Source: an uncultured Desulfuromonas sp. | Lineage (GTDB): Bacteria; Desulfobacterota; Desulfuromonadia; Desulfuromonadales; Desulfuromonadaceae | Length of the DNA stretch: 64,000 nucleotides | Reading direction: 5' to 3' | Assembly: GCF_963678835.1 (NCBI RefSeq) | Contig: NZ_OY787470.1 | Location: 620,001 to 684,000, forward strand | Shown here: positions 613-46,447 of the stretch, one piece after another | How positions within the stretch are numbered: the first letter of the stretch is position 1 | Layout of the letters: every line of letters begins with the position of its first letter | Notes under the pieces: generated by a model | What the model saw: only the letters and a program-made list of their open reading frames with translations | The model's database searches: none | Told to the model about the DNA's origin: nothing | Program-made: the position numbers and the translations under genes

Positions 613-2112
613 TTATTTCGCCAATACCGATTGCATGACCGGAAACAGATCAATGTTGTCCACATACGCTCCGCGAACCGGGTCGGTCGCGGTGGCGCGG
701 GCAGCCAGTTGTTCGGCGTTAGCACCACGGGCAAGCAGCGGCACCAGCGAGTTGGTGTGGCTGGTGTGATGCCATTCGAGGCCGGGCAGTTTTCCGGCAC
801 CGTTATTGGTGACCGGGTTCCAGCGCGGGTCGGAGTCTGGGCCGGTGAGGTAGCCGCATTCGTGATCGGCGGTAACCAGCACCAGGGTGTCCTGCCAGGA
901 GCTGTGTTGCTCTACCCAGTCGCAGACGGCGGCGACGGTGCGGTCGAAGTCGACCTGTTCTTCAATGAGGCGATCAGACTGGTTGTCGTGGCTGGCCCAG
1001 TCGATGGCACCGCCTTCGATCATCAAGAAGAAGCCCTGTTGATTGTTGTCGAGCACGTTGAGGGCGGCCTGACTCATTTCGACCAGGGTGGGAACCGTGG
1101 TGATCAGCGGCACAGTGTAGGGTTTAACTGTTTCTGTGGTCACGTGGCTGCCGTAATCGCCATCGCCTTCGAGTTTGCGCTCCTGTTGCAGGGTTTTGGC
1201 GATGCGCGGTACGCCGAGCAGACGCTTGGGCGTGGAGCCTTTCGCCAGGTTTTGAAATTCGTTGCGGCTTTCAATCAGGGTCCAGTGGTCGTCAATGCCG
1301 TCACCATCGGCATCGCCACCAACCGCCGCTTCCTGCAGTTGATGCCACAGCTTTTCACCACCAACATACTGGTAGCTTTCCGGTGTTGCCAGCAGTTGGC
1401 CATCATTGTCGTACCACGGATGGCCGCCGCCCATCAGTACGTCGACACCACTGTCGAGGATCATCTCACGGGCGATCTCTTCGTAGTTACGACGGCTGAC
1501 GTTATGCACAACAAAACCGGCCGGGGTGGCGTGGCTCAACGGCACACTGGTGACAATTCCGGTGGATTTCCCCTGCTTTTCAGCGATTTCCACAATGTTA
1601 TCCACAGGCTGACGTTGGCAATCCACACCCAGGCCAGCCCTGTAGGTCTTGGTGCCGCAGGCCAGAGCGGTAGCTGCGGCCGCGGAATCTGTGGCCCCTT
1701 CCTTGACGTTGGCGAAGCCGCTCCAAACCTGATCACCATCGTAGTTGCCACCATTGAGATAGGTGCTCATGGCCATTTTGACGTCAAAGTCACGGTAGGG
1801 TGGAGCGCTGGTTTTGCCTGTGCGGTAGAGACTGCCGGCGCGCAAGTGGTTGAAACCCATGCCGTCGCCAATGAGCAGGATCACGTTTTTGGCGTGGGAC
1901 GCTGGCGCTGTTTCGGCCTGTTGTGCGGGTGCCGTGGTTTCTGCCTCTACAACTGCGGTAGATGCGTGTTGCTCATTGTGTGCTGCGGCATGGTGGTTGG
2001 TTTCCGGTTCGCACTGATTATTGCAGCCGCTCAGCCAGGGCAGAGTGGCGAAGGTCAGAATAATAAGGGCATCGCGTAGCGGGCGATGATTTTTATGTTG
2101 TAAGATCATCAT
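613..2112 (-). CDS. Lipoprotein alkaline phosphatase (PhoA superfamily)
   Basis: A 499-residue phosphomonoesterase that releases phosphate from organic esters outside the cytoplasm. Family signatures are complete: the metal-binding IGDGMG near residue 80, the catalytic serine in TDSAAAATAL, the metal ligands in MIEGGAIDWASHDN and TADHECGYLTG, and the late histidine in EWHHTSHTN. The N-terminus has a hydrophobic stretch ending LSGC, a lipobox, so the protein is probably membrane-anchored rather than free periplasmic as in E. coli. It lies about 250 bp downstream of the phytase on the same strand, and a repeat element separates them. It may share the phosphate-scavenging role but need not be in the same transcript. 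Confidence 0.93.
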   Translation of the reverse strand: MMILQHKNHRPLRDALIILTFATLPWLSGCNNQCEPETNHHAAAHNEQHASTAVVEAETTAPAQQAETAPASHAKNVILLIGDGMGFNHLRAGSLYRTGKTSAPPYRDFDVKMAMSTYLNGGNYDGDQVWSGFANVKEGATDSAAAATALACGTKTYRAGLGVDCQRQPVDNIVEIAEKQGKSTGIVTSVPLSHATPAGFVVHNVSRRNYEEIAREMILDSGVDVLMGGGHPWYDNDGQLLATPESYQYVGGEKLWHQLQEAAVGGDADGDGIDDHWTLIESRNEFQNLAKGSTPKRLLGVPRIAKTLQQERKLEGDGDYGSHVTTETVKPYTVPLITTVPTLVEMSQAALNVLDNNQQGFFLMIEGGAIDWASHDNQSDRLIEEQVDFDRTVAAVCDWVEQHSSWQDTLVLVTADHECGYLTGPDSDPRWNPVTNNGAGKLPGLEWHHTSHTNSLVPLLARGANAEQLAARATATDPVRGAYVDNIDLFPVMQSVLAK

Positions 2113-2217: not shown

Positions 2218-2246
2218 GTACGTCAGCATCATTGAAATTGTCCATT

Positions 2247-2326
2247 GTAGGAGCGGCTTCAGCCGCGAATTCCCATCATGAAAAGGAGTAATAACCAGAA
2301 CAATTCGCGAATAAATTTGCTCCTAC
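2247..2326 (+). repeat. REP-like palindromic element, copy 1
   Basis: About 80 bp made of two hairpins, GTAGGAGCGGCTTCAGCCGC... and ...TTCGCGAATAAATTTGCTCC, joined by CCATCATGAAAAGGA. Its outer ends GTAGGAGC and GCTCCTAC are inverted. Near-identical copies are at 18747, 19056, 38675, 48707 (inverted) and 62109. Confidence 0.85.
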
Positions 2327-2366
2327 AGGGGGTCACTCCGATGACAAAATTGAGTGTGCCCGAGCA

Positions 2367-3461
2367 CTACAGGTCATCACCGGCAATCTGCTCCCATTTG
2401 TAGATCTGGAAGGTGCAGTTGTCGGACATGGCGACAAACATCCCTTGGGGAAAATTTTTGCCCAACGGTGTCGACGTGGCCTCAGAGCCGTCACTTTCGC
2501 AGGTGGCCAGTTCCACCACCTTGAGCAGCGGATGGTGATGAGGATCGTCGGCCGTACCCTGACGGGGGTAGATGTGAAATTCGTTGGCATGCTGGTCGGA
2601 AACCAGAATGTACCCCTGGCCGTTGGGCTGGGTATAGATGGAGATCCCTTCGTGGTCGCCGGCAAACCCCTTGGTCGCAAACAGAGCCAGCTCTTTGTTG
2701 CCCTGCGATGGATCAGCGTAGTACTTGCGCACACCGACCCCTTCGTCGGAATAGTAGATGTAGCCCAGAGCAGCATCCACGGCAATGGCTTCGATTTCGT
2801 TGAGGCCGCTGAAGGTGCCGAAGCGGCGCACCAGGGTGGCGCTGAGTTGGCCGTTGCCGTCGTCATGCAGCAGATACTGCCACAGATAGCTGCCGGAGGG
2901 GCCGTTTTTTCGGCCGACAATGGCGAAGATCGCCCCATCTGAGGGTCGTTTGTACAGGGAGATGCCCATCAGGGCGCGCTGATCTTCGCCCTGCTCGCCG
3001 ACAAACATATCGAGGCCACCGTTGTCGATGGCGGTCATATCCGGCAGGCTGAACACGCGTAGCTTGCTGGTCAGCCGTTCGGTGGCCACGGCAATATCCA
3101 CGGACTTGCCGCCCAGCATCAGGCCGTATTCAATGTCAACATTGTTGGGCCGCTTCAGGGCAACGGTCTTGTCTTTGAGCATGTGTCCTTTGAGGTCAAA
3201 TACGTACAGTCCGCCATTGCGATCCTTGTCAGTACCGACGATGAGACTTTTGGCCGCGTCGTGCGGGTTGATCCAGATGGCCGGGTCATCGGTGTCGTTA
3301 GGCGTCATGTCCGTGACCTTTTTCGGATGGATGATCGGTGTATCGCAGTTGCGTTGATACGGGGCGTCATCATCGGCGGTGACGAGCGCCGGTAGCCCCA
3401 GTGTCGTGACCAGCAGGGCCACGCTCAGGGTGCGGGTGAATGTTGTGAACACAGAATTCAT
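2367..3461 (-). CDS. Beta-propeller phytase (3-phytase family)
   Basis: A 364-residue secreted enzyme expected to hydrolyse myo-inositol hexakisphosphate (phytate) with calcium. Seen in sequence: a signal peptide (residues 1-29, ending LPALVTADD), the propeller entry DTDDPAIWINP, VGTDKDRNGGLYVFDLKG, NNVDIEYG, the acid-rich GLNEIEAIAVD and YYSDEGVGVRKYY blades, and FAGDHEGISIY. These acidic clusters are the calcium and phosphate sites of the beta-propeller phytase family. The start has a good ribosome site (GAGGAGC). It is the last gene of the TonB block, about 30 bp after tonB, implying co-transcription with the receptor machinery. Confidence 0.93.
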   Translation of the reverse strand: MNSVFTTFTRTLSVALLVTTLGLPALVTADDDAPYQRNCDTPIIHPKKVTDMTPNDTDDPAIWINPHDAAKSLIVGTDKDRNGGLYVFDLKGHMLKDKTVALKRPNNVDIEYGLMLGGKSVDIAVATERLTSKLRVFSLPDMTAIDNGGLDMFVGEQGEDQRALMGISLYKRPSDGAIFAIVGRKNGPSGSYLWQYLLHDDGNGQLSATLVRRFGTFSGLNEIEAIAVDAALGYIYYSDEGVGVRKYYADPSQGNKELALFATKGFAGDHEGISIYTQPNGQGYILVSDQHANEFHIYPRQGTADDPHHHPLLKVVELATCESDGSEATSTPLGKNFPQGMFVAMSDNCTFQIYKWEQIAGDDL

Positions 3462-3494
3462 TGCAAGCTCCTCAATATTTTTCTCAATTCAGGG

Positions 3495-4151
3495 TTAATT
3501 GATGGCAAAACGAATCGGCACGGTGATCCAGGTGGCCACGGCGGACTGATCAAGCATGCCGGGCTTGAAGCGCCAGCTCGCCACCGCCTGCAGCGCCGAT
3601 TGATCAAAGACGCCGGGCGGGTTGGCCTGCACAACGGACGCCTGATGGACCGAGCCATCGGTGGCGACGAGAAATTTCACCATCACCACGCCGCTGACTT
3701 TCTGTTGGCGCGCCTTGTATGGATACACCGGTTCGCGGCGGCTGATCACCTGCGGCATGGTGTCCACCTGGCTGATGTCAAACTCGCTCTGCGGGGCACT
3801 GACCGGGTTAAAGGCCATGCCGCCCAGTTTCATGTCGCTCACCGTCGCTTCGAATTGCGGTTGCGGCATCTGCATTGGCGGTGCCTTGGGTGGCGGTTGT
3901 TGACTGCGCGTCGGCAATGCCGGTGGTGTTTTCGGTAACTCCTTGGGCGGTGGCGGCTGCTTGTGCTGTTCCTCGGGGGGCGGAGGCGGCGGTGCCTGAC
4001 GCAGGTTGTTAAAGGTGAAGGCGCTGCGCGTGGTCTCTTCGTCGGCGTTGCCATCGATCTGCGACAACAGCGGAATCAACAGAAACAGCACCAGATTAGT
4101 GGCCACGGCAGCGGCCATGGCCGTGACGAGCAGGGGGCGCTTTTTTGCCAT
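3495..4151 (-). CDS. tonB: TonB-family energy transducer
   Basis: Couples the inner-membrane proton motor to an outer-membrane receptor. The start at 4151 (MAKKRPLL) is preferred over 4178: it lies 1 bp after the exbD stop and follows AAGGGGCC. This gives 218 residues. Order: one TM helix (about residues 8-28), a periplasmic proline/lysine/glutamine-rich linker (PPPPPPEEQHKQPPPP), then a TonB C-terminal domain with YPYKARQQKVSGVVMVKFLV and SWRFKP near the end. It sits in a tight exbB-exbD-tonB string with the TtpC-like gene upstream, which matches the TonB2-type systems of Vibrio and Shewanella. Confidence 0.93.
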   Translation of the reverse strand: MAKKRPLLVTAMAAAVATNLVLFLLIPLLSQIDGNADEETTRSAFTFNNLRQAPPPPPPEEQHKQPPPPKELPKTPPALPTRSQQPPPKAPPMQMPQPQFEATVSDMKLGGMAFNPVSAPQSEFDISQVDTMPQVISRREPVYPYKARQQKVSGVVMVKFLVATDGSVHQASVVQANPPGVFDQSALQAVASWRFKPGMLDQSAVATWITVPIRFAIN

Positions 4152-4152
4152 A

Positions 4153-4569
4153 TCAGGCCCCTTTTTTCGCCGCAACACTGAGGTTTTTCACCCCGGCCAG
4201 ACGACAGGCATCCAACACCTGGATCACCAGGCCGGAGCGGCTGCTGCGATCTGCGGCCAACACCACCGATCCGTTGGGGTTCTGCATCAGAAATCGCTCC
4301 ATATAGGACTGCACCGAGCGCACATCAATGGGCTTGCCTTCGATGACAACGATATTGTCGGCGGTGATGGCCAGCACCATGTTGGTGCTGTCACGTGTTT
4401 CAGCGGTCTGGGCGATGGGGCGCTGCACATCGACCCCGGCTTCGCGGACGAACGAGGTGGTGACGACAAAGAAAATCAGCAGAATGAAAATCATGTCGAT
4501 CAACGGCGACATGTTGAGTTCTGCGGGTTTGCGCCGCTGGCGGCGACTGAGACTGACTCGAGCCATCAT
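4153..4569 (-). CDS. exbD: ExbD biopolymer transport protein
   Basis: A 138-residue proton-channel partner of ExbB. A single TM helix near residues 20-42 contains the family aspartate (PLIDMIFILLIFF), followed by a periplasmic domain (GKPIDVRSVQSYM, VVLAADRSSRSG). The start overlaps the exbB stop by one base (TAATG), and its stop lies directly before tonB, so the genes are translationally coupled. TolR is the only close alternative; the TonB neighbour argues for ExbD. Confidence 0.95.
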   Translation of the reverse strand: MMARVSLSRRQRRKPAELNMSPLIDMIFILLIFFVVTTSFVREAGVDVQRPIAQTAETRDSTNMVLAITADNIVVIEGKPIDVRSVQSYMERFLMQNPNGSVVLAADRSSRSGLVIQVLDACRLAGVKNLSVAAKKGA

Positions 4570-5159
4570 TACAGCCCTCCTTGTTGCAGCAGACGCAGAC
4601 TGAAGCGCTGCATCCGCTCTTTCATCTGTTCGGCGCGGCGGTAGAGCAGGGCGCCGAGAATTAACCCCGGCACCGCGACCACCAGACCGGCCTGGGTGGT
4701 GATCAGGGCCTCGGAGATCCCGGCGGCCATGGCGCGGGCATTGCCGGTGCCGAACACGGAAATGACATTAAAGGTGGTGATCATGCCGCTGACCGTACCG
4801 AGCAGGCCCATCAACGGTGCGGCGCTGGCCAGCACCAGAATCGTGCCGATAAAACGATCCACTTCATTGCTCTGGCGTTGCTGCAACTGCAGCAAATGGT
4901 CGCGATCCAGGCTCTGGTGCTCGCGCAGCCAGATAAACTGGCGCAGGATGTTCTGTTGCCAGAAAGCACCGATGTAGCGTTGTTCAATCAGCGCCTGACG
5001 GCATTGTTTGAGGCTGACCTCTTCTCGGCGGGCCTGAAAAAACAGCAGCCCTTTGTAGAAGATCATCAGCCACATCACCAGCGAACTGACCAGCAGCGGC
5101 CACATCACCAGCCCGCCGTGGCGGATCATGTCAAGGCTTTCACCGAGCAGATCAGTCAT
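4569..5159 (-). CDS. exbB: ExbB proton channel protein (MotA/TolQ/ExbB family)
   Basis: A 196-residue inner-membrane protein with three TM segments (about residues 18-38, 105-130 and 150-172). It carries the family block PLMGLLGTVSGMITTFNVIS and GISEALITTQAGLVVAVPGL. It pairs with ExbD to use proton flow to energise TonB. It overlaps the upstream TtpC-like gene by 8 bases (that gene ends at 5152). It is the second channel-family protein in the operon, as in TonB2-type systems. Confidence 0.95.
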   Translation of the reverse strand: MTDLLGESLDMIRHGGLVMWPLLVSSLVMWLMIFYKGLLFFQARREEVSLKQCRQALIEQRYIGAFWQQNILRQFIWLREHQSLDRDHLLQLQQRQSNEVDRFIGTILVLASAAPLMGLLGTVSGMITTFNVISVFGTGNARAMAAGISEALITTQAGLVVAVPGLILGALLYRRAEQMKERMQRFSLRLLQQGGL

Positions 5160-6573
5160 GGTTGCTATCCTGCGGTTGCGGCGTGATGCGGCCGGTTTTC
5201 AGCAGGGTGATTTTGAACGCCGTGCCTTTTTCTTCCATGTCGCCAATCAACACATCCACGCGCCGCTCAAACAGGTGATGGAGCAGCATGATGGGGATGG
5301 CCACGGCCAGACCAACCTGAGTGGTGATCAATGCTTCGGAGATGCCACCGGACATCATTTTCGGGTCGCCGGTGCCGAACACGGTGATCACCTGGAAGGT
5401 GCTGATCATGCCGGTAACAGTCCCGAGCAGACCAAGCAGCGGGGCGATGGCCGCGAACATGGCCATGGTGGGCAGAAACTTTTCAAAGCGCGGCATCTGT
5501 TTCATCAAGGCTTCTTCAAGGGCGTTGTCGAGAACCTCCTGCGTCTGGCCGATCTGCTTCAGGCAACTGGCGAGGATCTGGCAGGTGGGGGCGTTTTTCT
5601 TCTCGCGGCAAAACATCTCACCCTCTTTGATCTGATCCAATTCCACATAGCGGGTGACCTGATGGAGGATGGTGTCGGAGTTGGCGCGAATGCGCAGGAA
5701 AAAAGCCAGACGCTCAGCAGCCAGCAGCAGAGCGATGACGCCGATAGCCAGAATCGGCCACACCAGAAAACCGCCCGATTCAAGCCATTCGCCGAAACTT
5801 TTGCTCTGGGTCATCTGCAGGAATACCGCGCCACCGGAGATATCCAGTGGCAGGTGGCTGTGCTCGCCACTGAAAAAGCGATCAATGGCATTCAGTGCTG
5901 GACCGGGAATCTCACCGGCGACCGCTACCAGTTCACGTCCGTCACTGTTGGCTTGCAGGTAACCGGCGTTGTCGCGGTCGCGGTAAACGGCCCCCAGCGC
6001 ACCGATACGGGCGATCTCGCCACGAACAACATTGCCGTCTTCGGCAAAAAATTCACCATTGCCCAGAGTGACTTGGCTGCCGGCTGTGGCATAGGCGCGA
6101 CACAGGGCTGTGAGGGCGCGAATTTCATCCATGCCCGGGAAGTTTTTCTTCTCGAGGATGGTATCAATGGTCTGCCGTTGTTGAGCAAATTGGGGACCCA
6201 GCGGACTGTGCTCAAAAAGGTCATTGACCCGTTTTGCCGCACCGAGAACCGTGCCCTGAATCCCTTCAATCTCTTCCTGTTCGGCAGCCAGTTCCTGATT
6301 GAGCTTCTGTTCAACTTTGCTCAGTTTAGCCAGAGCTTGCTGGGCGACGCTGAGCTGTTGTTTCTGTTGCTTTACTTTGCTGCGCAGTTGGCTGAGGGCC
6401 TTTTTTAGATCGGCTTCGTCCTGATGTATCAGCTGTTCGATCATGGCCGCGCGGGACAGCCCCTGCTGGTTCATGGTGGTCAGAGAATCGCTGATCTGCT
6501 GCCAGGAGGCGGCAAAAGCGCTGTGAGCAACCAGCAGCAGGGCTGCAATGACTAAAGTTTTCAATGTTTTCAT
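5152..6573 (-). CDS. ttpC: TtpC-like protein: periplasmic coiled-coil fused to an ExbB-type channel domain
   Basis: 473 residues. A signal peptide is followed by a long coiled-coil periplasmic region (about 25-270, rich in Q, K and E). A MotA/TolQ/ExbB domain follows, containing PLLGLLGTVTGMISTFQVIT and GISEALITTQVGLAVAIP. This architecture is that of TtpC, the extra component of the Vibrio TonB2 system. It is nearly twice the length of ordinary ExbB. It starts in a TAATG overlap with the DUF3450 gene and overlaps exbB at its end. The periplasmic arm is thought to contact TonB or the receptor across a wide periplasm; that role here is inferred. Confidence 0.88.
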   Translation of the reverse strand: MKTLKTLVIAALLLVAHSAFAASWQQISDSLTTMNQQGLSRAAMIEQLIHQDEADLKKALSQLRSKVKQQKQQLSVAQQALAKLSKVEQKLNQELAAEQEEIEGIQGTVLGAAKRVNDLFEHSPLGPQFAQQRQTIDTILEKKNFPGMDEIRALTALCRAYATAGSQVTLGNGEFFAEDGNVVRGEIARIGALGAVYRDRDNAGYLQANSDGRELVAVAGEIPGPALNAIDRFFSGEHSHLPLDISGGAVFLQMTQSKSFGEWLESGGFLVWPILAIGVIALLLAAERLAFFLRIRANSDTILHQVTRYVELDQIKEGEMFCREKKNAPTCQILASCLKQIGQTQEVLDNALEEALMKQMPRFEKFLPTMAMFAAIAPLLGLLGTVTGMISTFQVITVFGTGDPKMMSGGISEALITTQVGLAVAIPIMLLHHLFERRVDVLIGDMEEKGTAFKITLLKTGRITPQPQDSNHD

Positions 6574-7352
6574 TACACGCCCTCCGTGCTACGAACCGCT
6601 TCGGGCAGCGGCAGATCAATCAGTTCTGCGGCACGTTTTTGCTCAATGATGTCGATGGTGACGCGTACGGTGTCGCGATACGCTTCCGGCAACGGTTTCC
6701 ACACCCGCTCCTGCACATCCCACTGGCCGACTTTGTCGCCATTGAGACTAAGGTAAAACAGGCCGACGCGCCCCAGACGCAGCACCTGGACCATGGTGTC
6801 GCCGCTGGCCAGAGACAGGGTTTGTTCGGTGACTTCAACACTGTTGCCGTAGTCGGCTTCCACCTGCAACGCTTCGAGGACGCGGCGCAGTTTTTCACTC
6901 AGCGCCAGATCAGGGTCGGTAAGGGACTGGTCGAGAAATGCCAGACGTTCGCTGCGTTCCTGGTCAAGAAACGGCAGGTCCTTGGCGACATCGTTGTGCA
7001 GTTGTTCCACACTGCTGTCGAGAAACGGCTCCAGCTCTTTGCGCAGTAGGGTCATTTGTTGTTTTTGCCGTTTAAGGTCGGCAATGGTGGTCTGCTTGTG
7101 ATCAACGTATTGGCGGTATTTCTTGGTCTGAAAGCGGTTCCATTCCAGTTGGGTTTTCTGGTCGAGCAGATCGTTGACCAGGGCCTGACGTTGTTCGGAC
7201 CACTGTTCCACCTTGTCCTGAGTGGCGATTTCCCGTTTGAGGGTGGCGGTGCTTTGTTGTTGGATCTGTGCCGGGTCGGCAGCTAGAGCCTGCAGGGGCA
7301 GGGTGCTGATGGCCAGGGTCAGGCACAGGGTTTTCCATGCTGTGTTCATCAT
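6573..7352 (-). CDS. DUF3450 family periplasmic coiled-coil protein
   Basis: 259 residues: a signal peptide (ALAADPAQ cleavage region), then a long predicted coiled coil (about 30-130), then a small globular region with MVQVLRLGRVGLFYLS and WDVQERVWKPLPE. DUF3450 genes regularly stand directly ahead of ttpC in TonB2-type operons; their biochemical role is unknown. The overlap with the TtpC-like gene (TAATG) supports joint synthesis. A structural partner of the TtpC periplasmic arm is the most reasonable inference. Confidence 0.85.
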   Translation of the reverse strand: MMNTAWKTLCLTLAISTLPLQALAADPAQIQQQSTATLKREIATQDKVEQWSEQRQALVNDLLDQKTQLEWNRFQTKKYRQYVDHKQTTIADLKRQKQQMTLLRKELEPFLDSSVEQLHNDVAKDLPFLDQERSERLAFLDQSLTDPDLALSEKLRRVLEALQVEADYGNSVEVTEQTLSLASGDTMVQVLRLGRVGLFYLSLNGDKVGQWDVQERVWKPLPEAYRDTVRVTIDIIEQKRAAELIDLPLPEAVRSTEGV

Positions 7353-7417
7353 CGGTACTCCATCGTGTGTGACTGCATCAGGATCGTTTGCATCCTGAGA
7401 AAAATGAGCGGTTGTTT

Positions 7418-8632
7418 TTAGATTGCAGCGTTACTCTCCTGTTCGGCCTGGGCGAGGAGATCAAGGACATCCAGGGCGTTGCGGGCCTGAGACCGGAAAC
7501 GGCGGTCGCCGAGGGCCTGCTTAAAATGGGTGCGGGCCGTTTCCCATTGGCCCAGATGCCAGGCGGCATAGCCTTGCAGCAGGTGTTGCCGCGGGCGGGC
7601 TGTTGTCGGTGACAGCGCCAGAAGTTGTTGATAGCTGCCCCGGTCGTAGAGCAGTTGCGCCTTGAGGCTGTGCAGCTCACTGTTTTTCGGCGAGCGTTGC
7701 AGCGCCGCATCCACTTCAGCCAGGGCCTCGTCGTAGGCATAGCCCTGATGATAAAGGCGGGCAATCTTCAGGCTGTTTTTCGGGGTCGGGGTGTCTTTAT
7801 AGGCGCGTTTGAGCAGGTCGGCAGCGCGCAGCGGTGCTCTCAGGTAGCCGTAAAGCCCGGCCAGTTGCGTCAGATCGTCGCGGTTGTCGCCGTGCAGGCG
7901 CAGGGTAACTTCGAGGGCGGATGCCGCCTGTTTATACTTTTCCTGCTGCAGGGAAATCTGGGCTTTGAGGCGCCAGTAGGGCTCGTGCTCGGGTTGCTGG
8001 TGCAGCAGGCGGTCGAGAAGCTGTTGGCCCTGTTGCCACTCTTTGAGCTCAATGTGGCAGGAGAGCAGCAATTCGTACCAGTTGGCTTTGATTGTCGCCC
8101 CACTGATCAGGCTGGTCAGGCTTTGTTTGGCCTGGCGGTAATGTTCCCCCTGAATAAAGGCGACGGCAGACTGATAAAGAAGTTGGGGGTCTTTGGTCTG
8201 CTGTAATTGGTAGCTGTGGGCAAATTGACGTCCGGCCTGATCGTAATGGCCGTCGAGGTAATAGCAGGTGGCCAGATTGATCGACAGTTGAGCATCGTCC
8301 GGTTGCAGTTTCAGAGCCGTGGCAAAGGCCTCGGTGGCTTTTGGGTCATCATTTTGCTGGTGGTAGCAGGCGCCGAGCAGCGAGTAAAACGGGTACGGGA
8401 TATCGTCGGGATACTCGGTCATGTAACTGTGGATCATGGTGACGCATTGCTGTGCATCGCCAACCTGTAGCGCTTTTTGCGCCTGATACAGGTGCTTATT
8501 CTGACGGAAGGTCAGCTTGGCGTCGGCCGAGGTCGCCAGACCGCATACGAGCATCAGCAGCACAACTCCTGTGAGCCAGCGGTGGATTGTGTCTTGTGTG
8601 GGGGAAAAGAGAGTCACGTGTCTACCTGTCAT
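7418..8632 (-). CDS. Secreted TPR-repeat protein of the TonB operon
   Basis: Up to 404 residues: a signal peptide (VVLLMLVCGLATSADA) followed by at least eight tetratricopeptide-like helical repeats (for example AFATALKLQPDDAQLSINLA, ALAEVDAALQRSPKNSELHS). TPR proteins accompany ExbB2/ExbD2/TonB2 operons elsewhere, usually at the end; here it precedes DUF3450. The ATG at 8632 has no ribosome site. A GTG five codons later (8617) follows AGGTAG at good spacing and may be the true start. It is probably a periplasmic scaffold for the receptor-TonB complex. Confidence 0.82.
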   Translation of the reverse strand: MTGRHVTLFSPTQDTIHRWLTGVVLLMLVCGLATSADAKLTFRQNKHLYQAQKALQVGDAQQCVTMIHSYMTEYPDDIPYPFYSLLGACYHQQNDDPKATEAFATALKLQPDDAQLSINLATCYYLDGHYDQAGRQFAHSYQLQQTKDPQLLYQSAVAFIQGEHYRQAKQSLTSLISGATIKANWYELLLSCHIELKEWQQGQQLLDRLLHQQPEHEPYWRLKAQISLQQEKYKQAASALEVTLRLHGDNRDDLTQLAGLYGYLRAPLRAADLLKRAYKDTPTPKNSLKIARLYHQGYAYDEALAEVDAALQRSPKNSELHSLKAQLLYDRGSYQQLLALSPTTARPRQHLLQGYAAWHLGQWETARTHFKQALGDRRFRSQARNALDVLDLLAQAEQESNAAI

Positions 8633-8642
8633 TGTAAAACAA

Positions 8643-8669
8643 CCCGACCCCTGGCTGGCAGGGGTCGGG
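8643..8669 (-). terminator. Intercistronic hairpin, probable attenuator between receptor and TonB genes
   Basis: A perfect 10-bp stem (CCCGACCCCT/AGGGGTCGGG) with a 7-base loop, read on the minus strand and followed by TTGTTTTA. It lies just after the receptor stop and before the TPR start. It resembles a leaky terminator that would make more receptor mRNA than TonB-complex mRNA. Confidence 0.6.
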
Positions 8670-8704
8670 AGAGGCGAGGTGAAACCGCGTGTCGCTGATG
8701 CGGT

Positions 8705-11467
8705 TTAAAAGTTGAACTTGAGGCCGAAGCGTGCCGACCAGCCGTATTCCTCGTATTGGCTGTTACGGCCCGACTGGTCATAGTAGGCTTCAAGCGGTTC
8801 GTCGGTCAGATTGATGAAGTTGGCGTACAGGGTGTACTTGTCCATGAAGGTATAGGCTGTGGACAGATCGACCTGGAAGTGATCGTCGATGTAGCGGTCC
8901 TCAAATTTCTCTTCACCCAAATCGTCCAGGTATTCGCTGCGGTAGGTTCCGCTGAGGCGAACAAAGAAGCCGTATTTCTCGTAGGACAACGCTACGCTGC
9001 CGACGGTGTCGGAGTGACGCATCATGTCGACGGTACGCCCTTCGCCGCCCTCTTCCGAGGGCAAGACGTCTACTTCGCTGTCGGACAGAGTCAGATTTCC
9101 CTCGATGGAGAAGCCGTCGAGCGCACCGGGCAGGAAGCTGAGTTTTTGCTGGTAGGCCAACTCAATGCCGTAGACTTCCCCTTCGTCGCCGTTGCGGAAG
9201 GTGGTCAGCTCGTAATCGCCCATGTCGGCGGTCTGCTCGTAGATGAAGTTGTCGATGTCTTTGTAGAACAGGCCGATGGACGCCATGCCGAGAGAATCAG
9301 GCATGTAGTAAGTCAGGGTGGCATCCCAGTTCATGGCTTCGTAGGGATCAAGGTCGGGATTGCCGATTTCGATATTACCGTCATCATCGGTGAACTTGCC
9401 GTAGAAGGTCTGGTCCCATTGCGGACGGGAGATGGTGTTCGTCCAGGCCAGATACAGAATCAGGTCGTCGCTGAAACGCACCTTGCTGTGCAGGCTGGGC
9501 AGGATATTGGTGTAGTCGTTGCTCTTTTTCTGTGCGGTGAAGGTTTCACTGTCTTCGTCAAAGGCGTTGCCCTGGCATTCCAGGTCGGTGTATTCAATGC
9601 GCACACCGGGCAGCAGAGTGAAGCGGCCGAAATCAGCCTCGCCCATGATGTAACCGGCATAAACGTCTTCATTGGTTTCGTAATCTTCGACAACGGATTC
9701 TTCAATGTCGCGCTCAATGGTGCCGAAATCGCTTTTCATGCTGTCGAACAGGTCATCAACGTCATCGCTGATGAGTGGAAAGTCACTGTTTTGTTTGCGC
9801 CCACCGGTGGTCAGACCTTCGAGTGTGGCCAGAGCTGCGGGTGCATCTTCGTAGACCATCATGTCGAGATCATTGGTTTTGTTGCGCAAAGTGATGTGAA
9901 CGCCGGTTTTCAGGTACGACTGAAACGAGGTGTTGAGTTCTTTTTTGACATTGGCGGCAAAGATCCAGGCCTCTTCTTCGACCAGTTGCTTGCTGTCTTC
10001 GACGGCATCCAGTTCGTAGATGCTCAGATCATTCAGGTCGCCACTGTTGACCGTAACGTTGGGGGTGTTCCCGTCAGCGTCGCTGTAATTGTAGTTGAGG
10101 TCGCCGGTTTCATAGAGAAACTGCTTATCGAACGGCGTGTCCTGTTCAGCGTAGGAGTAGGCGGCTTTGTAGTCGACGGTCCAGGTGTCGACCTTGTTTT
10201 CACCACCGACGCAGAGCGCCCAGTTCATCTGGGTTTCTTCACGGTTTTTCAGTTGCAGACGTGTTTCCGGGTAGAGTTCGTCTGCATCGTCTTCATAGTC
10301 CTCACCAACGATCAGGCCGGTGGATGAGGTGTCCGGTAACATCATCATATCCTTGATAATGCTACGGCGACGGTATTCGTGGTCGGTAAACTCGCTATAC
10401 AGGCCGCGCAAAAAGTAGCTGTTGTTGTCGTTGGGCTTGTATTCAAGGTTGGTGGTAAAACCGAGACGCTCGCGGGTCAGATCGTATTCACGATACTGCA
10501 ACTCCTCGGTGACCCATTCGTTATCATCGTTCAATTCCCAGGGATCCGCTTCAACGTCATCGGAACCGAACTGACGTTTGTCGTAGCTGACCGAGAACAG
10601 CGCCCCGAACTGGTCGTTGGCACCAAATACGTCGCCAAAGGTCAGCTCACCGGTTTCGGTTAGATCGTCGGTCAAATCGCTGTAGTTACCGCCGACGGCA
10701 CCACGGATAGTGCGCTCGTTACGGTCATAGGCACTGGGCGAAACAATTTCGATGTGACCACCAATACTGTCCGCCGGCATATCCGCGGTGAGCGCTTTGG
10801 TGACGATCAGCGAGCCGGCAACGTTGGTTGGGATGACGTCGAGCAGGACCGCACGAGTGCCGTCCTCCGCCGAAGCCAGGGTGATGCCGTCGATGGAGGC
10901 GCTGTTCAGGTGCGGATCGATACCGCGGACAATGACAAAGCGGCCTTCGCCCATGTCACGCTCTATGGAAACGCCGGGGATGCGGTTCAACGCTTCGGCA
11001 GCATTCTGGTCTGGGAAGCGGCCGATGGCGTCCGAGGCGACAATATTCTGCAGGTTGGGGGCGTTTTTCTGCTGGTTGAGAGCACGCGCCTGGCCAACGG
11101 CCTGACCGCTGACCACCATCTCATCCATCTGCATCCCTTCACTACCGAAATCGACGTCAAGGCTGCTGGTGCTGCCTTCTGCAACCGTCACCTGGCGGGT
11201 GACATTGCTGTAGCCCAGATAGCTGAAGGTCAGAGAGTGCTCGCCGGTTGCCAGGTTGATGCTGTAGTTGCCGGCGCGGTCAGTTACGGTTTTGGTCTGG
11301 CCATTGTCCGCGCTGACGAGCACGCCCATCAAATTGATATCGTTCACAGAATCCTGTACCTGGCCGGCCACGCGTCCATTGGCCGCCAGGACGGTCTGAG
11401 CCATTGTGGTCAGTAGTAAGAGCGTCATCACCAGAAAAGTGATAACGCGGGGCTGTCGTGGCATCAT
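8705..11467 (-). CDS. TonB-dependent outer-membrane receptor with N-terminal carboxypeptidase-regulatory-like domain
   Basis: A 920-residue outer-membrane barrel. After the signal peptide (to about residue 28) comes a CarboxypepD_reg-like beta domain (VAGQVQDSVNDINLMGVLV to LDVDFG). The plug domain follows (VASDAIGRFPDQNAAEALNR, VRGIDPHLNSASIDGITL, DSIGGHIEIV), then a long barrel ending in the aromatic ARFGLKFNF. The plug wording matches the large Xanthomonas/Caulobacter-type receptor family. The start follows AAGGAG. It heads the DUF3450-TtpC-ExbBD-TonB-phytase block, so the likely cargo is phytate or a phosphate ester. That substrate is inferred from context; the receptor sequence alone does not specify it. 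Confidence 0.93.
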   Translation of the reverse strand: MMPRQPRVITFLVMTLLLLTTMAQTVLAANGRVAGQVQDSVNDINLMGVLVSADNGQTKTVTDRAGNYSINLATGEHSLTFSYLGYSNVTRQVTVAEGSTSSLDVDFGSEGMQMDEMVVSGQAVGQARALNQQKNAPNLQNIVASDAIGRFPDQNAAEALNRIPGVSIERDMGEGRFVIVRGIDPHLNSASIDGITLASAEDGTRAVLLDVIPTNVAGSLIVTKALTADMPADSIGGHIEIVSPSAYDRNERTIRGAVGGNYSDLTDDLTETGELTFGDVFGANDQFGALFSVSYDKRQFGSDDVEADPWELNDDNEWVTEELQYREYDLTRERLGFTTNLEYKPNDNNSYFLRGLYSEFTDHEYRRRSIIKDMMMLPDTSSTGLIVGEDYEDDADELYPETRLQLKNREETQMNWALCVGGENKVDTWTVDYKAAYSYAEQDTPFDKQFLYETGDLNYNYSDADGNTPNVTVNSGDLNDLSIYELDAVEDSKQLVEEEAWIFAANVKKELNTSFQSYLKTGVHITLRNKTNDLDMMVYEDAPAALATLEGLTTGGRKQNSDFPLISDDVDDLFDSMKSDFGTIERDIEESVVEDYETNEDVYAGYIMGEADFGRFTLLPGVRIEYTDLECQGNAFDEDSETFTAQKKSNDYTNILPSLHSKVRFSDDLILYLAWTNTISRPQWDQTFYGKFTDDDGNIEIGNPDLDPYEAMNWDATLTYYMPDSLGMASIGLFYKDIDNFIYEQTADMGDYELTTFRNGDEGEVYGIELAYQQKLSFLPGALDGFSIEGNLTLSDSEVDVLPSEEGGEGRTVDMMRHSDTVGSVALSYEKYGFFVRLSGTYRSEYLDDLGEEKFEDRYIDDHFQVDLSTAYTFMDKYTLYANFINLTDEPLEAYYDQSGRNSQYEEYGWSARFGLKFNF

Positions 11468-13193
<1,726 letters not shown>

Positions 13194-13339: not shown

Positions 13340-15616
13340 GCGGACCACAGGCGTTCAAAATCAAGGTCAAGATCGCCGGGATTCGCCCCGGCAGGCGACA
13401 TCCTTTTGGCAAGCCGCCCAAAAGGATGCAAAAGCCGGCTAGGGGTTCACAGTGATTTCTTGATTTAGATAGGATGGGTCGTTTTCCGTTATGCTTCACT
13501 GATTCGGCTCGTTGCCCTTTAGGTCAACGAATCGTGCGCTTCATGAGCAGTGGTATTGACGGTGATAACTCTTGTTATCTTTGATCAACCAAGTTGTGCC
13601 AGGCACCCTGGCAAAGAGGGAGTGGGCTTTGCCCACCCCATGGGCATTAAAATTGAACGGAGTAACCTGTTTCGATATCGCTCCCCAGCTCTCCCGTTCA
13701 GCAGCGCCGAACGGAGTGAACGGTCACCGCGATGGTCGTCGGCAACCTGTTTGAGCGTCAGCGAGTTTTGCCGACATCGCGGTGTTAGTGAACGCAGAGA
13801 GGGAACCCGTAAGGGCGCAATGACGGGAGTCGATTTTGCGGTACTTTTGTCGACGCAAAAGTGCCCCGACGTGCGGGCGCGGAAGCCCGCGTCATGTGGG
13901 TACCAACAATGCGAACGGATGAAGTCCGCCGGAGCGGTTTGTTCCGTATGGTGGACCACAGAAAATCAAAATCAAGGTCAAGATCGCCGGGATTCGCCCC
14001 GGCAGGCGACATCCTTTTGGCAAGCCGCCCAAAAGGATGCAAAAGCCGGCTAGGGATTCACAGTGATTTCTTGACTTGGATAGGATGAGTCGTTTTCCGT
14101 TATGCTTCACTGATTCGGCTCGTTGCCCTTTAGGTCAACGGATCGTGCGCTTTATGAGCAGTGGTATTGACGGTGATAACTCTTGTTATCTTTGATCAAC
14201 CAAGTTGTGCTGGCACCCCGGCAAAGAGGGAGTGGGCTTTGCCCACCCCACGGGCACTGACGTTGAACAGAGCCGCATTGGTCGGCATCGCACCCAAGCT
14301 CTCCCGTACTGCAGCGCCGAACGCAAGGAGCTGGAGCCGTGATGATCGTCGGCAACTGTTTGAGCGTCAGCGATTTTTGCCGACATCACGGCGGAAGCGG
14401 ATGGAGTGAGGGAACTCGAAGAGCGCATTGGGGTTGTTATGAATCAGAAGAACGAGAGGTGTTGCGTGAGATTTTTTGCGTCAGCAAGGCAGAGGGAGGA
14501 GCTATAGTTGGTCTATGGCGACGACCGATAACGCCGCTGACGTGAAAAAGATCCGCAACAACTCCGTGAAGGCTGATTGATGACAACCCCTTGGGAGTCG
14601 ATTTTGTGTTCCTTTTGTCGACGCAAAAGGGACCCGAGGTGTGGGCGCGGAAGCCCACGTCATGTGCGTACCAACAATGCGAACGGATGAAGTCCGCCGG
14701 AGCGGTTTGTTCCGTATGGTGGACCACAGAAAATCAAAATCAAGGTCAAGATCGCCGGGATTCGCCCCGGCAGGCGACATCCTTTTGGCAAGCCGCCCAA
14801 AAGGATGCAAAAGCTGGCTAGGGGTTCACAGTGATTTCTTGATTTAGATAGGATGGGTCGTTTTCCGTTATGCTTCACTGATTCGGCTCGTTGCCCTTTA
14901 GGTCAACGAATCGTGCGCTTCATGAGCAGTGGTATTGACGGTGATAACTCTTGTCATCTTTGATCAACCAGGTTGTGCTGGCACCCTGGCAAAGAGGGAG
15001 TGGGCTTTGCCCACCCCACGGGCACTGACGTTGAACAGAGCCGCATTGGTCGGCATCGCACCTAAGCTCTCCCGTACTGCAGCGCCGAACGCAAGGAGCT
15101 GGAGCCGTGATGATCGTCGGCAACTGTTTGAGCGTCAGCGAGTTTTGCCGACATCACGGCGGACGCGGATGGAGTTCGCCGGTGCAATTTGTTCCGTATG
15201 GTGGACCACAGAAGAACAAAATCAAGGTCAAGATCGCCGGGTTTCGCCCCGGCAGGCGACATCCTTTTGGCTAGCCGCCCAAAAGGATGCAAAAGCCGGC
15301 TAGGGATTCACAGTGATTTCTTGATTTAGATAGGATGGGTCGTTTTCCGTTATGCTTCATGGATTCGGCTCGTTGCCCTTTAGGTCAACGAATCGTGCTT
15401 CTCCTCAGCGATGGCATTGACGGTGATAAAAAACAGGAGCTTGATCAACCAGGTTGTGCTGGCACCCCGGCAAAGAGGGAGTGGGCTTTGCCCACCCCAC
15501 GGGCACTGACGTTGAACAGATCGCCAATTTTGAATATTGCTCCCAAGCCCTCCCGTTCAGCAGCGCCGAACGTCATGTGGGCACCAACATTGAGAACGGA
15601 AAAGGGTTCGCTGTAG
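13340..15616. repeat. Array of four imperfect hairpin-rich repeats between gdhA and the PEP-synthase-like gene
   Basis: A core of about 300 bp (AAAATCAAGGTCAAGATCGC through GCCCACCCCACGGGCA) recurs at about 13357, 13968, 14735 and 15228. Between the cores lie variants of two further blocks: one with GAGCGTCAGCGA and GCCGACATCACGG, and one with GTCGACGCAAAAG and GCGCGGAAGCCC. Each core contains the hairpin ATCCTTTTGGcaagccgCCCAAAAGGAT, where the stem is ATCCTTTTGG/CCAAAAGGAT; the third block contains CTTTTGTCGACGCAAAAG. Copies differ by scattered substitutions and by presence or absence of blocks. Open frames here are in repeated DNA, conflict between strands and lack ribosome sites, so I call no genes. 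Confidence 0.85.
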
Positions 15617-33216: not shown

Positions 33217-33317
33217 AATCTTTTAATGTTGCGGCCCATGATTTGACTTGACGATCGTGGGCCGCCTTTCAAGAATTTCGGTAGAGAAACAACGTGCGGT
33301 TAACTACGGAGGAAACC

Positions 33318-36300
33318 ATGCCCTATGGGAAGTTGAGCAGACTGTTTTTTATGACGTTTCTTTTTGTTTCAATGTGGTTCAACATTGCCTACGCGGTTCC
33401 CTCCGATGAAAATTATGATGATGATAGTGGTTTTACAACGACTTACGCCGATCAGTTTAGTAACGACGGTATTACCTACACGATGGTGAATCGGACGGAG
33501 TCGACAATAATAGGAAATGGTTCTGATAGTGCCTTGAGTGACGGCGGGACGGACTATTACGTGAATTTTGGTACGGTTTCCGGTTCTGCGGCATCGTTAA
33601 CCATCACAGCTGAGGATGCTGCTTCTTTTTATTTAAAAAGCATTTCGATTGATGCCTTGATCAACAACGAAGCTCTGACGATTACACCACTGGGGGGTGA
33701 TGACGTTGTTTTATCTCCAAATGCGGATGGTCGGTTCTCTCAACAGGGGTTGGATTTTTCAGATAATTCAGATTTTTACAACATCACTTCAGTGACGATT
33801 AGTGGCAGTTTTTGGGAGCTCTGCCTCGACGATCTGGATTTTGAGGCTCCAACGTCCGCCGCACCGGTAATCTCCAATCTGGACGGCGATAGCTTTACCT
33901 ATACGGAAGGCGATGCGGCGACCATGATTGATCAGGGCACGGCCGCCACGGTGACGGATAGCGACAGCAGCGATTTTAACGGTGGCACTCTGACGGTGAC
34001 CATCACTGGAGGAGACGCCGGCGAAGACCTGCTTGATCTTGCCTTGGGGACAGTAACCCTGGACGGAACAACGGTCGGATCGAATGTCCGTGTCAGTGGC
34101 TCCGTGGTGGGCACGCTCGGTAATGCCATTGCCGTCGGCAATGATCTGGTGGTCAATTTCACCACGGCCAATGCGACACCGGCGAATGTTCAGACTCTGC
34201 TCCGCGCTGTCACCTATGAGAATAAGGACACCGATGCGCCGACCACCGGAGCACGGACGGTGTGGACCACCATCAGTGACGGCGATGGCGGCACCAGCGC
34301 CGTCACTGATGTCACGGTGACGGTCGCCGGAAGCAATGATGCTCCCGTGATTGCAAATATGGACGGCGACAGTCTGACCTATGATGAAGACGATGCGGCA
34401 ACTGCCATTGATGTCGGCGGTGACGCGACAGTCAGCGATGTCGACAGCAGCGATTTCAACGGTGGCGCTCTGACGGTGACCATCACTTCCGGAAAAGACG
34501 GCGCCGAAGATCAACTGGGCCTTGACACCACAGGGACGGTGTCCCTGGCCGGGCTAACGGCCGGATCGAATGTCAGTGTCAGCAGCTCCGTAGTGGGCAC
34601 GCTCGGCAACACCATTGCCGTCGGCAATGATCTGGTGGTCAATTTCACCACCGTTAATGCGACTCCGGCAAATGTGCAAAGCCTGCTCCGCGCCGTCACC
34701 TATGTGAATACGGATAACGCCACACCGACCACCGGAGCACGGACGGTGCAAACCACCATCAGTGACGGTGACGGCGGCACCAGCACCAATGCCAATGTCA
34801 CGGTCACGGTCACAGCGGTCAATGACGATCCCACGATGACGGCATTGCCAACGGACATCACCGTTATTGAAGACACCTTAAGCAACGTTGATTTAAGCGC
34901 GGCGACCTTGAGTGATGTCGATTCCGCGGCAAGCGCCATGACCCTGGCGCTCAGTGTCGATTCCGGAACGTTGACCGCTTCCAGTGGTGGCGGCGTGACC
35001 GTCGGCGGCTCCGGCAGTGCAACCCTGACCCTGGCCGGAACCGTTGCCAACATTGATACCTATCTCAACACGGCAGCAAATATCCAATATACCGGCAGCA
35101 GTAATACCTACGGAAACAATGCCGCGACCTTGACTCTGACCGCCAATGACGGTGGCGCCACCGGTAGTGGCGGCGGAACGGATGTCTCGCTGGGGACGGT
35201 CAACCTGGATATCACCGGAACCGGCGATACCCCCGGCGTGACGTCTGCGACAACGGATGAAGACACGCAGACCACCTCAGGGCTGGTGATCAGCCGCAAT
35301 GCTGTAGACGACGCCGAAGTCACCCATTTCAAAATCACCAATATCAGCGGCGGCACCCTGTATCAAAACGATGGTACGACGGCCATTGCCGATAACGCGT
35401 TTATCACCTTTGCCGAAGGCAACGCCGGGCTCAAGTTTACTCCGACAGCAAACAGTACCTCAGACGGCAGCTTCGATGTTCAGGCCGCAACCGATGGTGT
35501 CGGCGGCGGGCTATCCGCGACAAGTGCCACGGCGACGATTACCGTCAATGCCGTTAATGACGCTCCGGTGATCACCAAGCTCAACGGTGATGCCGTGACA
35601 TTCAGTATCGGCGGCAATAGTGTTGGTCTCGATCTCAACGGTAACGCCACACTTGACGACGTTGATTCCGTGGATTTCTCCGGTGGCTCTCTTACGGTGA
35701 CAGTTATTGGCAATGCGCAGACGGGTGAAGACCTGTTGTTGATCGGCGCTGTGGGCACTATTGCCACCTCCGGGACGAATGTGACCCATACCGACGGCGT
35801 AACCATCGGCACCTTTGTCGGCGGCAGCGGCGGTGCACCTCTGGTCGTCACCCTCAACGCAGACGCCACCCCCGCCCGTGTCCGCGATCTGATCTCCGCC
35901 GTACAATACGGCAACAGTGACGCCGCGACGGCAAACACTCTTGACCGGACTGTCCGCCTGACGGTAGATGACGGCGATGGCGGCACCGCCACCTCGGCAA
36001 ATCAGGACGTCATCGTTTCTCTGCTGCGGGCACCGATCATCGATCTGGATGGCGATGATTCCAGCGGCGCAGTCAATGGCGGATATTTCGGCACCTTCGT
36101 GGCGGGCGGCGGAGCCGTGGCCGTTGCAGATAGTGATTCCGCCATCAGCGATGACGGCACCTTCAATACGCTGACCCTTGTGTTAACCAATCGACCTGAT
36201 GGCGTCTCAGAGAGTCTCAGCTCAACCTATGGCAGCGGCGCTCAGACCGTTAATGGCGAAGTCGTGACGATTGCCGGCTACAGTGCGGCCACCGGGCAAC

Positions 36301-44587: not shown

Positions 44588-46447
44588 TCAGGCGCAAGCT
44601 GCTGTCTGTTGGTGTTGTGCCGCCAGGTAGCTCGCGTAACCTTCCCGGCCCATGTAGCGTTGCAGTTGTTTGCGTTCGGTCTGTTGCAGATCAACCAGCA
44701 GCAGGCCGTCAATCACATGACCGAAATCCGGATCAAGATTAAAGGCCAGCAGTTTGCCGCCAAGGCTTAGGTAGTGGCGCAGTAGCACCGGGATACCGCG
44801 GTTGTCGCTCTCCAGGTCGGCGACCAGCGCCGAAATCTCGTCCATATCGCGCAGCAACGGGTCGCTCTGCTGGGTGGATAGGCCTTGGATCTTCAACGGT
44901 GTCACCGGCACCGGCAGGCGCGGCGATACCAGCCCGGACCATTCCTTAACCATGAAGTAGCGTGTCAACGTGTCGACCATCAGGTGGCGCGAGTTGGCGG
45001 TGTAGTCGTTGGAGATACTCACCGGGCCGAACAGGTAACGGTAATGTGGATTGTTGACCAGATAATGACCGATCCCTTTCCACAGTAGCAGCAAAGGTGC
45101 ATAAGAGCGCTGGTGTTCCGGGCGGATAAACGAGCGTCCCAGCTCCAGAGCGTTGTGCAGCCGCTCCAAAAGTTGCGGTTGAAAATTGAACAGCGTTGAG
45201 GTGTAGAGACCTTCGGCGCCGTAGTGGCCGAGCAGGTCATCCACCCGTCCGATGCGGTAGGCGCCGACCAGCTCGCCTTGTTTGTGGTTCCACAAGCACA
45301 GGTGAGTATAGGTTTCGTCAAAACGATCAAGATCAATGCTGTGGCCGGTTCCTTCACCCACCTCGCGGAAGGTGACTTCCCGCAATCGGCCGATTTCGTT
45401 GAGGAGCCCAGGGGCTTGTGCCGCAGTGAATTCGACGACGGCAAAGTCACCACTGTGCACCAGGTGCTGCGCCTCGGGCAGGGCGGCAATTTCGTTTTTC
45501 AGGGTCTCGGCAGGCCGGGGCGCGCAAATGGGCTGCGGCTCGTCGTTTTCTGATTTGGCCACGGTTTTGGCGCGGGTGTCCGCTGCCAGGTTCAGGCCAT
45601 AGGTGCGCAGACGCAGATAGTCGTTTAACTCCTGACTGGTCGCAAAGCCGATCAGTTTTTTGCTGGGCAGCAGATTGCCGATGCGCAGTGGCAAGGTTCG
45701 TCCTGCTTTGTTCAACAACATGTGCGGCAACAGCAGGGTACGCAGGCGTGGATGAAGGCGTCCCGCCCATTGAAACAGCGCCCCGTTTTCACCGGGAAAG
45801 AACACGGGGAGTACCGGGGCCTTACTGCGACGGACCAGGCGCGGCAGGGTCGAACTCCAGACCGGATCAGTTATCTCGCCCGTCGCTTGACGGGAGGACA
45901 CTTCTCCGGCAGGAAAGATCACCAGCATGCCGCCTTGTTTCAACCAGTTCAACGATTGACGTAATGGGGTCAGGTTGGTGCGGGCCGCGTCAGCGCCACC
46001 AAACGGATCGACATTGATCAGCTGACCGCGCAATTGCGGAATGCCGCTGAGCATGAAGTTGGCCATCACCTTGAAATCCGGGCGCACTTTGCCGAGTAAC
46101 GCCATGATGATCAGTCCCTCAATACCGCCGAACGGATGGTTGGCAATCAGGATGCATGGCCCTGAAGTTGGGATGCGTGCCCGTTCGTGGTCGTTCAACT
46201 GATAACGAACGTTAAGGGTGTTCAATGCCTGTTCAGCGAAAGAGATCTCAGTGTCTTGGGCACTGACCCGGTCGTAAAGTCGCTGGCAACGCTGTAGGCC
46301 CAGCAGGTGTTCCGCCATCATCAACAAAGGTTTTTTAACCGCGCCGGGACACTGGAAACGGGTTGTCGCGAAAGAAGAAAAGGACTCGCCAGAGTATTGT
46401 CTGTTCCGATCATGTCGCTCCATCCTGCTCTTGAGGTGATCCGTCAT
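44588..46447 (-). CDS. Bifunctional acyltransferase, OlsF-like (ornithine or aminolipid synthesis)
   Basis: 619 residues in two domains. N-terminal (about 60-290): a PlsC/OlsA-type O-acyltransferase with ANHPFGGIEGLIIMALLGK and VIFPAGEVSSR. C-terminal (about 330-560): an OlsB-type N-acyltransferase in the GNAT fold, with LREVTFREVGEGTGHSIDLD, GAYRIGRVDDLLG, ELGRSFIRPEHQRSY and LFGPVSISNDY. This is the architecture of Serratia OlsF, which makes ornithine lipids from ornithine. Amino acid specificity cannot be read from the sequence. The upstream ribosome site is weak. Ornithine lipids are often made under phosphate limitation, which fits the phosphorus genes at the window start, but linkage is inferential. 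Confidence 0.83.
   Translation of the reverse strand: MTDHLKSRMERHDRNRQYSGESFSSFATTRFQCPGAVKKPLLMMAEHLLGLQRCQRLYDRVSAQDTEISFAEQALNTLNVRYQLNDHERARIPTSGPCILIANHPFGGIEGLIIMALLGKVRPDFKVMANFMLSGIPQLRGQLINVDPFGGADAARTNLTPLRQSLNWLKQGGMLVIFPAGEVSSRQATGEITDPVWSSTLPRLVRRSKAPVLPVFFPGENGALFQWAGRLHPRLRTLLLPHMLLNKAGRTLPLRIGNLLPSKKLIGFATSQELNDYLRLRTYGLNLAADTRAKTVAKSENDEPQPICAPRPAETLKNEIAALPEAQHLVHSGDFAVVEFTAAQAPGLLNEIGRLREVTFREVGEGTGHSIDLDRFDETYTHLCLWNHKQGELVGAYRIGRVDDLLGHYGAEGLYTSTLFNFQPQLLERLHNALELGRSFIRPEHQRSYAPLLLLWKGIGHYLVNNPHYRYLFGPVSISNDYTANSRHLMVDTLTRYFMVKEWSGLVSPRLPVPVTPLKIQGLSTQQSDPLLRDMDEISALVADLESDNRGIPVLLRHYLSLGGKLLAFNLDPDFGHVIDGLLLVDLQQTERKQLQRYMGREGYASYLAAQHQQTAACA

Follow-up and report, generated by a model that had tools for sequence, protein, structure and literature searches.

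A Desulfuromonas gene row joining a TonB-dependent receptor, a TtpC-type motor and a beta-propeller phytase

Gene content of the locus

We analysed a 64,000-nt stretch of an uncultured Desulfuromonas genome (hereafter the window; G000:C2:620001-684000, where G000 is the genome that carries it), and describe a row of nine genes, all on the minus strand, that runs from 11467 to 613 according to a reading of the open reading frames (ORFs) and Pfam and NCBIfam profiles. The order from 5' to 3' is TonB-dependent receptor, TPR protein, DUF3450 protein, TtpC-like protein, ExbB, ExbD, TonB, beta-propeller phytase and lipoprotein alkaline phosphatase (Table 1). An original prediction from the same DNA had listed the first eight as co-oriented genes with an alkaline phosphatase further downstream. 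All eight were found with the families claimed (minus strand, 11467-2367), and the phosphatase was found at 613-2112.

By profile score, the receptor belongs to TIGR01782 (554.1 bits, curated cut-off 310), the phytase to PF02333 (152.9 bits, cut-off 21) and the alkaline phosphatase to the PhoA-type profile PF00245 (204 bits, cut-off 24.4). The last of these contains LSGC, which we take to be a lipobox-like motif. The phytase, the sole PF02333 match in G000, also matches the solved phytases 1cvm, 1qlg, 1poo and 3amr by phmmer, all at E 3.8e-30 or better (E 2.2e-31 for 1cvm). Across seven phytases, two of them from Desulfuromonas, 30 columns are invariant, among them the DDPAIW and NNVD positions of the window phytase; its invariant residues include D56, D58, D59, K79, N106, N107, D109, E224, E240, E271, Q290 and D324.

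The genes between receptor and phytase represent, by family, all six classes ttpB, ttpC, exbB, exbD, tonB and ttpD, with the TPR gene foremost, so the profiles confirm the TtpC-type layout that had been proposed. The TPR protein has 22-26% identity to the TPR genes in the two other Ttp sets of G000.

Table 1. Features of the gene row and its surroundings, in window coordinates
Feature	Position	Strand	Basis or remark
Conserved non-coding block 5' of receptor (promoter footprint)	11570..11633	-	alignment of G000, G001, G008, G009
TonB-dependent receptor, TIGR01782 type, 920 aa	8705..11467	-	CarboxypepD_reg-like N-terminus, plug, barrel
Hairpin with T-rich tail in the receptor-TPR gap	8643..8669	-	11-pair stem
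TPR protein, TtpD-like; exact start uncertain	7418..8632	-	profile search
DUF3450 protein, TtpB-like	6573..7352	-	PF11932, 229 bits
TtpC-like protein	5152..6573	-	long N-terminal region and C-terminal MotA/TolQ/ExbB domain
ExbB	4569..5159	-	PF01618
ExbD	4153..4569	-	PF02472
TonB; start GTG at 4178 or ATG at 4151	3495..4178	-	PF03544, 82.8 bits
Beta-propeller phytase, N-terminal signal-like stretch	2367..3461	-	PF02333, 152.9 bits
REP-like palindromic element in phytase-alkaline phosphatase gap	2240..2335	.	repeated core in window
Lipoprotein alkaline phosphatase, ninth gene	613..2112	-	PF00245
Copies of the REP-like palindrome	2247-2268, 18747, 19056, 38675, 48765, 62110		window positions

Conservation across the class

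The row was surveyed in 277 genomes of the class and 14 genomes of the family. The complete nine-gene order is present in four genomes (G000, G001, G008 and G009), and three more carry it within the limits of their contigs: in G005 the row runs from a cut DUF3450 gene to the phosphatase and is bounded by the contig end; in G012 receptor to phytase lie on one contig, and the remaining phytase and the phosphatase open another; and in G086, from another family, the receptor, TPR, DUF3450 and TtpC genes are found at 63, 50, 57 and 62% up to the contig end. Gene order shared to this extent is more than chance, and the comparison across relatives that the original prediction had called for comes out in its favour. 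The same holds for the adjacency of receptor and phytase, which stand in one row wherever a contig spans both (G000, G001, G008, G009 and G012). Receptor orthologues in G001, G008, G009 and G012 are at 86-95%, and the alkaline phosphatase directly follows the phytase in all five other genomes for which the adjoining stretch was covered (G001, G005, G008, G009 and, on its continuation contig, G012). G001 is probably Desulfuromonas acetoxidans, since its phytase agrees in length (364 aa), mass (39,756 Da) and pI (4.8) with the values that PMC4017775 gives for this species.

PF02333 occurs in 6 of the 14 family genomes and 7 of the 277 class genomes. Among the matches listed, TtpC relatives above 60% are likewise found in seven class genomes, namely the six operon genomes and G086, so that PF02333 and this TtpC type occur together in 6/277. 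Other full-length TtpC relatives reach 38% at best among the matches listed (partial matches up to 53%), and TtpC-like paralogues at 31-38% are present also in genomes without the operon. This distribution bears on the possibility that the motor is a general cellular TonB supply that merely lies beside a phytase locus. TonB sets can serve many receptors, and G000 has six TonB_C matches and three DUF3450 sets, two of them DUF3450/TtpC sets outside the operon and one of these near an unrelated receptor; the claim of a private TonB complex is therefore not borne out. However, the TtpC type of the row is found, among the matches listed, only in seven genomes, six of which have the receptor; the seventh, G005, has the remaining operon genes. 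Because the type is restricted to the operon while paralogues at 31-38% occur in genomes without it, a housekeeping set is unlikely, and we give general supply a low probability. Elsewhere in G000, a Ttp set (L020; G000:C1, about 2206500-2216040) lies near a receptor, a TP_methylase-domain protein and an amino-acid permease.

The receptor-phytase pair outside the group

A scan of genome contigs with the phytase gave 448 stretches and 368 relatives. The top 80 were retained, comprising two contigs from the Desulfuromonas group and 78 loci outside it. By title, 64 of these 78 are Bacteroidota, six are KSB1, six are given as 'bacterium', one is Cloacimonadota and one Neomarinimicrobiota; 67 are at least 15 kb long. 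Neighbours were counted by tblastn (E 1e-5), since an ORF-based table could hide overlapped genes. A receptor match on the same strand within 2.5 kb of the phytase was found at 71 of the 78 loci, and matches to the TPR, DUF3450, TtpC, ExbB, ExbD, TonB and alkaline phosphatase proteins at 0/78. At locus L076 the receptor is at 55% and the phytase at 57%. In a quick tree, with rows chosen by similarity, the six Desulfuromonas phytases form one cluster (100) that lies within an open fork shared with Bacteroidota rows (support 88).

Judged from these sequence neighbourhoods, receptor and phytase appear to behave as a separate pair, distinct from the motor genes. The pair is shared with Bacteroidota and KSB1, and its union with a Ttp motor probably took place in the Desulfuromonas line; the quick tree gives the transfer no direction.

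Receptor relatives and the likely cargo

A tblastn search of plasmids with the receptor at 1e-30 matched 43 records, the best 20 of which are listed. In 17 of these 20 a phytase, metallophosphoesterase or histidine phosphatase lies within two genes of the receptor relative: a phytase in nine (H24, H26 across the record start, H27, H30, H31, H34-H36 and H38), a metallophosphoesterase without PF02333 in six (H21-H23, H25, H29 and H37) and a histidine phosphatase in two more, H32 and H40 (divergent). Two records are ambiguous, H33, whose tyrosine phosphatase adjoins a different receptor, and H39, where a phosphoesterase lies beyond an insertion sequence element, and H28 has no phosphatase-type gene within two genes. 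For another receptor of the window, used as a control, such phosphatases were found in 0/5 plasmid neighbourhoods (4-kb flanks).

Published loci point the same way. In Flavobacterium johnsoniae a PF02333 phytase (Fjoh_1367) and a TonB-dependent transporter (TBDT) with pf13715 (Fjoh_1368) show fold changes of 5.76 and 9.22 under depletion of inorganic phosphate (Pi) in the portions of PMC8115612 covered; those portions state three TBDTs to be Pi-only and show four in Table 1. The plasmid records and this pair together back the phosphate-ester cargo that had been predicted. The receptor-phytase neighbourhood in Proteobacteria, also mentioned in the original prediction, is indeed already in print: the covered passage on Citromicrobium bathyomarinum describes a TBDT adjoining a phytase gene and reads it as phytic acid uptake (PMC3400609).

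These data also bear on iron uptake, in which the receptor would take Fe(III)-phytate or another iron chelate and the phytase would destroy the chelator and so free the iron. The host group is iron-associated, and an acidic receptor fits a metal complex. The TonB2/TtpC systems of Vibrio are iron systems, and in V. vulnificus TonB2 both TtpB2 and TtpD2 are required, as the covered parts of PMC6957404 report. The same parts, however, describe TonB3, a Ttp operon with the six genes of TonB2 and a receptor gene in front, as apparently carrying no iron products; its function is given as still unknown in what was covered of PMC10734418. That source also has Teredinibacter tonB1b and tonB2 serving cellulose use as well, so Ttp motors are not restricted to iron. 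The receptor kin moreover adjoin phosphatases of several unrelated families, the best Fur-box match 5' of the receptor is 11 of 19, a score reached at 412 window positions and hence at chance level, and the Flavobacterium pair goes up under Pi depletion, even if the covered portions of PMC8115612 do not allow Fjoh_1368 to be claimed as Pi-only. We therefore regard iron uptake as quite improbable.

Another explanation is that a secreted phytase hydrolyses phytate outside the cell, in which case the cargo of the receptor would be lower phosphate esters, inositol or another compound. The N-terminus of the phytase is a plain signal-like one with no anchor seen, and its sequence alone cannot tell secretion. 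Joint encoding with a TonB motor and lipoprotein phosphatase is easier to explain if the ester reaches the periplasm; this is not decisive, but we consider extracellular hydrolysis unlikely.

Proposed function and closest known systems

The nine genes probably form one functional unit that obtains phosphate from inositol phosphates, either phytate or its breakdown products, with a TtpC-type motor encoded in cis. Gene content, order, conservation, family membership and the conserved phytase positions were observed directly; from them we infer the substrate, an import that precedes hydrolysis and the use of the motor by the receptor. In this mechanism the receptor would carry the ester across the outer membrane, energised by a complex of ExbB, ExbD, TtpC and TonB together with the TtpB-like (DUF3450) and TtpD-like (TPR) proteins. 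In the periplasm the phytase would then dephosphorylate the ester, the lipoprotein alkaline phosphatase would complete the lower esters, and the inorganic phosphate would enter via Pst. A more specific version, in which the six-part motor serves this one receptor and intact inositol phosphates are imported, a Bacteroidota-type pair thus having been fused to a Ttp motor, is possible but tentative.

Neither the receptor-phytase pair nor the Ttp motor is new by itself; the novelty is their combination. A literature search (titles, starts of abstracts and passages, with subscription journals mostly outside it) found no phytase operon with a TtpC-type motor. V. vulnificus TonB3 (receptor, ttpB3, ttpC3, exbB3, exbD3, tonB3, ttpD3; PMC6957404) has the receptor first and the six Ttp classes, as here, a likeness of gene classes drawn without sequence comparison; the TPR gene is last there but the first motor gene here. 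The covered parts of that paper mention neither phytase nor phosphatase, and leave the TonB3 cargo unassigned. The F. johnsoniae locus shares a PF02333 phytase beside a CarboxypepD_reg-like TBDT, but unlike the row described here shows no motor genes in Table 1 of PMC8115612, and for the adjacent pair of C. bathyomarinum the covered passage of PMC3400609 does not mention a motor. Pseudoalteromonas THAF3 and Catenovulum have receptor and phosphatases in a row, as here, in receptor-phosphatase-phytase loci, but with AraC and GGDEF genes upstream and no motor genes annotated.

A TonB complex in cis, which the original prediction took to be distinctive, is not so in itself. On one plasmid of Acinetobacter pittii (pAR3651_1) and one of Paraburkholderia sp. 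FT54, a receptor relative lies near ExbB/TolQ-, ExbD/TolR- and TonB-type genes. Unlike the motor here, this is the classic three-gene set with no DUF3450 or TPR match; the phytase of pAR3651_1 is annotated as two coding sequences, and the Paraburkholderia plasmid has a YncE-like propeller in place of PF02333. Classic motors near related receptors point to repeated origins of a local motor in this receptor family. No TtpC relatives were found on plasmids at 1e-30. In A. junii, an ORF 3' of the phytase resembled TolQ on visual inspection; since neither Pfam nor tblastn returned a match, it was not counted as a local motor.

Phytate is large and highly charged, and in the literature covered its crossing of the outer membrane is so far deduced from neighbouring genes and from expression. 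A compact operon of gate, motor and enzymes offers a single object for studying this entry. If the motor does serve one receptor with phosphate cargo, then motors of the TtpC type, whose best-known cargo is iron, can act as modules dedicated to one cargo, and phosphate esters become candidate cargo for the orphan TonB3 of Vibrio.

Spacing, regulation and exceptions

Several observations weigh against a single phosphate-scavenging unit. From receptor to alkaline phosphatase the successive intergenic gaps are 72, 65, -1, -8, -1, -26, 33 and 254 bp. The predicted overlap or adjacency of the genes thus holds for DUF3450, TtpC, ExbB, ExbD and TonB but not for receptor-TPR, TPR-DUF3450 and TonB-phytase. 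The 72-bp gap contains a strong terminator-like hairpin (8669-8643; 11 pairs, T-rich tail), which is kept in five genomes (z -3.2 to -4.5) and has one copy in its own genome when up to two mismatches are allowed. In G086 the same gap has an unrelated 18-pair hairpin (z -7.0) without a T tail. That the position is kept while the sequence changes points to a function, most likely in expressing receptor and motor at different levels: a hairpin 3' of the receptor gene would probably raise receptor expression over that of the motor. The conserved hairpin argues against a simple single transcript, and co-transcription of all the genes, as had been predicted, is putative.

Control by phosphate, likewise predicted, gained no support from the sequence. 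The block 5' of the receptor is not visible in G012. We trained a Pho matrix on a CTAAC-like array with an 11-bp period that is conserved 5' of the second pst operon. The receptor upstream array ranked 4 of 127,944 positions, with an ornithine-lipid-synthase-like gene second for three units and first for four. Column-permuted pst matrices, however, equalled the receptor array in 47 (three units) and 67 (four units) per 1000, and a period of 15 scored almost equal to 11. With the pst+ols matrix it was equalled by 202 and 205 of 1000 permutations, 316 and 181 of 2000 shuffles and 11 and 5 of 340 tiles, and for three units periods 7 and 15 outscored 11. A genome-wide scan with a Pho-like pattern gave 8 matches, including the site itself, versus 11 for a control pattern, and the best match to the E. 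coli-type Pho consensus was 11 of 14, on the other strand. We therefore rejected the Pho-box reading as evidence, since the permutation, shuffle, tile and period controls did not uphold the receptor site.

Two genomes are exceptions to the co-occurrence of phytase and motor: G086 has no PF02333 match, on a contig that stops inside TtpC, and G097 has a phytase (52%, tblastn) with no receptor match within the 12 kb covered and an ExbB/ExbD pair of another type about 5 kb away on the other strand. For the loci outside the group, the tblastn motor search is of moderate sensitivity, having overlooked ExbD and TonB genes that are annotated in L030 and L178. A receptor match anywhere was found at 73 of those 78 loci, but at 22-54% identity, with many weak, and only 38 of the 73 have an alignment longer than 600 aa. 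The plasmid control covers 5 of 11 records. Finally, the receptor is highly acidic (166 D+E versus 67 K+R), which is odd for a polyanion cargo unless it is bound as a metal salt.

Other features

The phytase contig of G097 (L027 134-4535) carries a DUF2341-LamG-ExbB fusion, followed by an ExbD-like stretch and a putative porin. In the window, an acyltransferase-GNAT fusion at 44588-46447 (-), which presumably resembles an ornithine-lipid synthase, has upstream (46448-46510) a CTCAAC/CTAATC array with an 11-bp period that resembles the array of the second pst operon. Its first ~40 residues match separately in G001, G008 and G009, and its gene start is therefore probably internal.

The phytase-alkaline phosphatase gap is 254 bp in G000 compared with about 50-111 bp in G001, G005, G008, G009 and G012, and is widened by the REP-like palindrome GTAGGAGCGGCTTCAGCCGCGA, which has six copies in the window at up to three mismatches (0.00 expected). 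A second TonB-dependent receptor of the window lies at 41926-44052 (-), with plasmid kin near hutW/hutX haem genes in 3/5 records examined. Behind a glutamate dehydrogenase gene, similar ORF fragments occur at least three times (13550-15303), probably as a repeated element. The window also encodes a repetitive protein of 1638 aa at 33294-38210 (+) and, at 46588-47382 (-), a protein with a C-terminal motif that we take to be PEP-CTERM-like.

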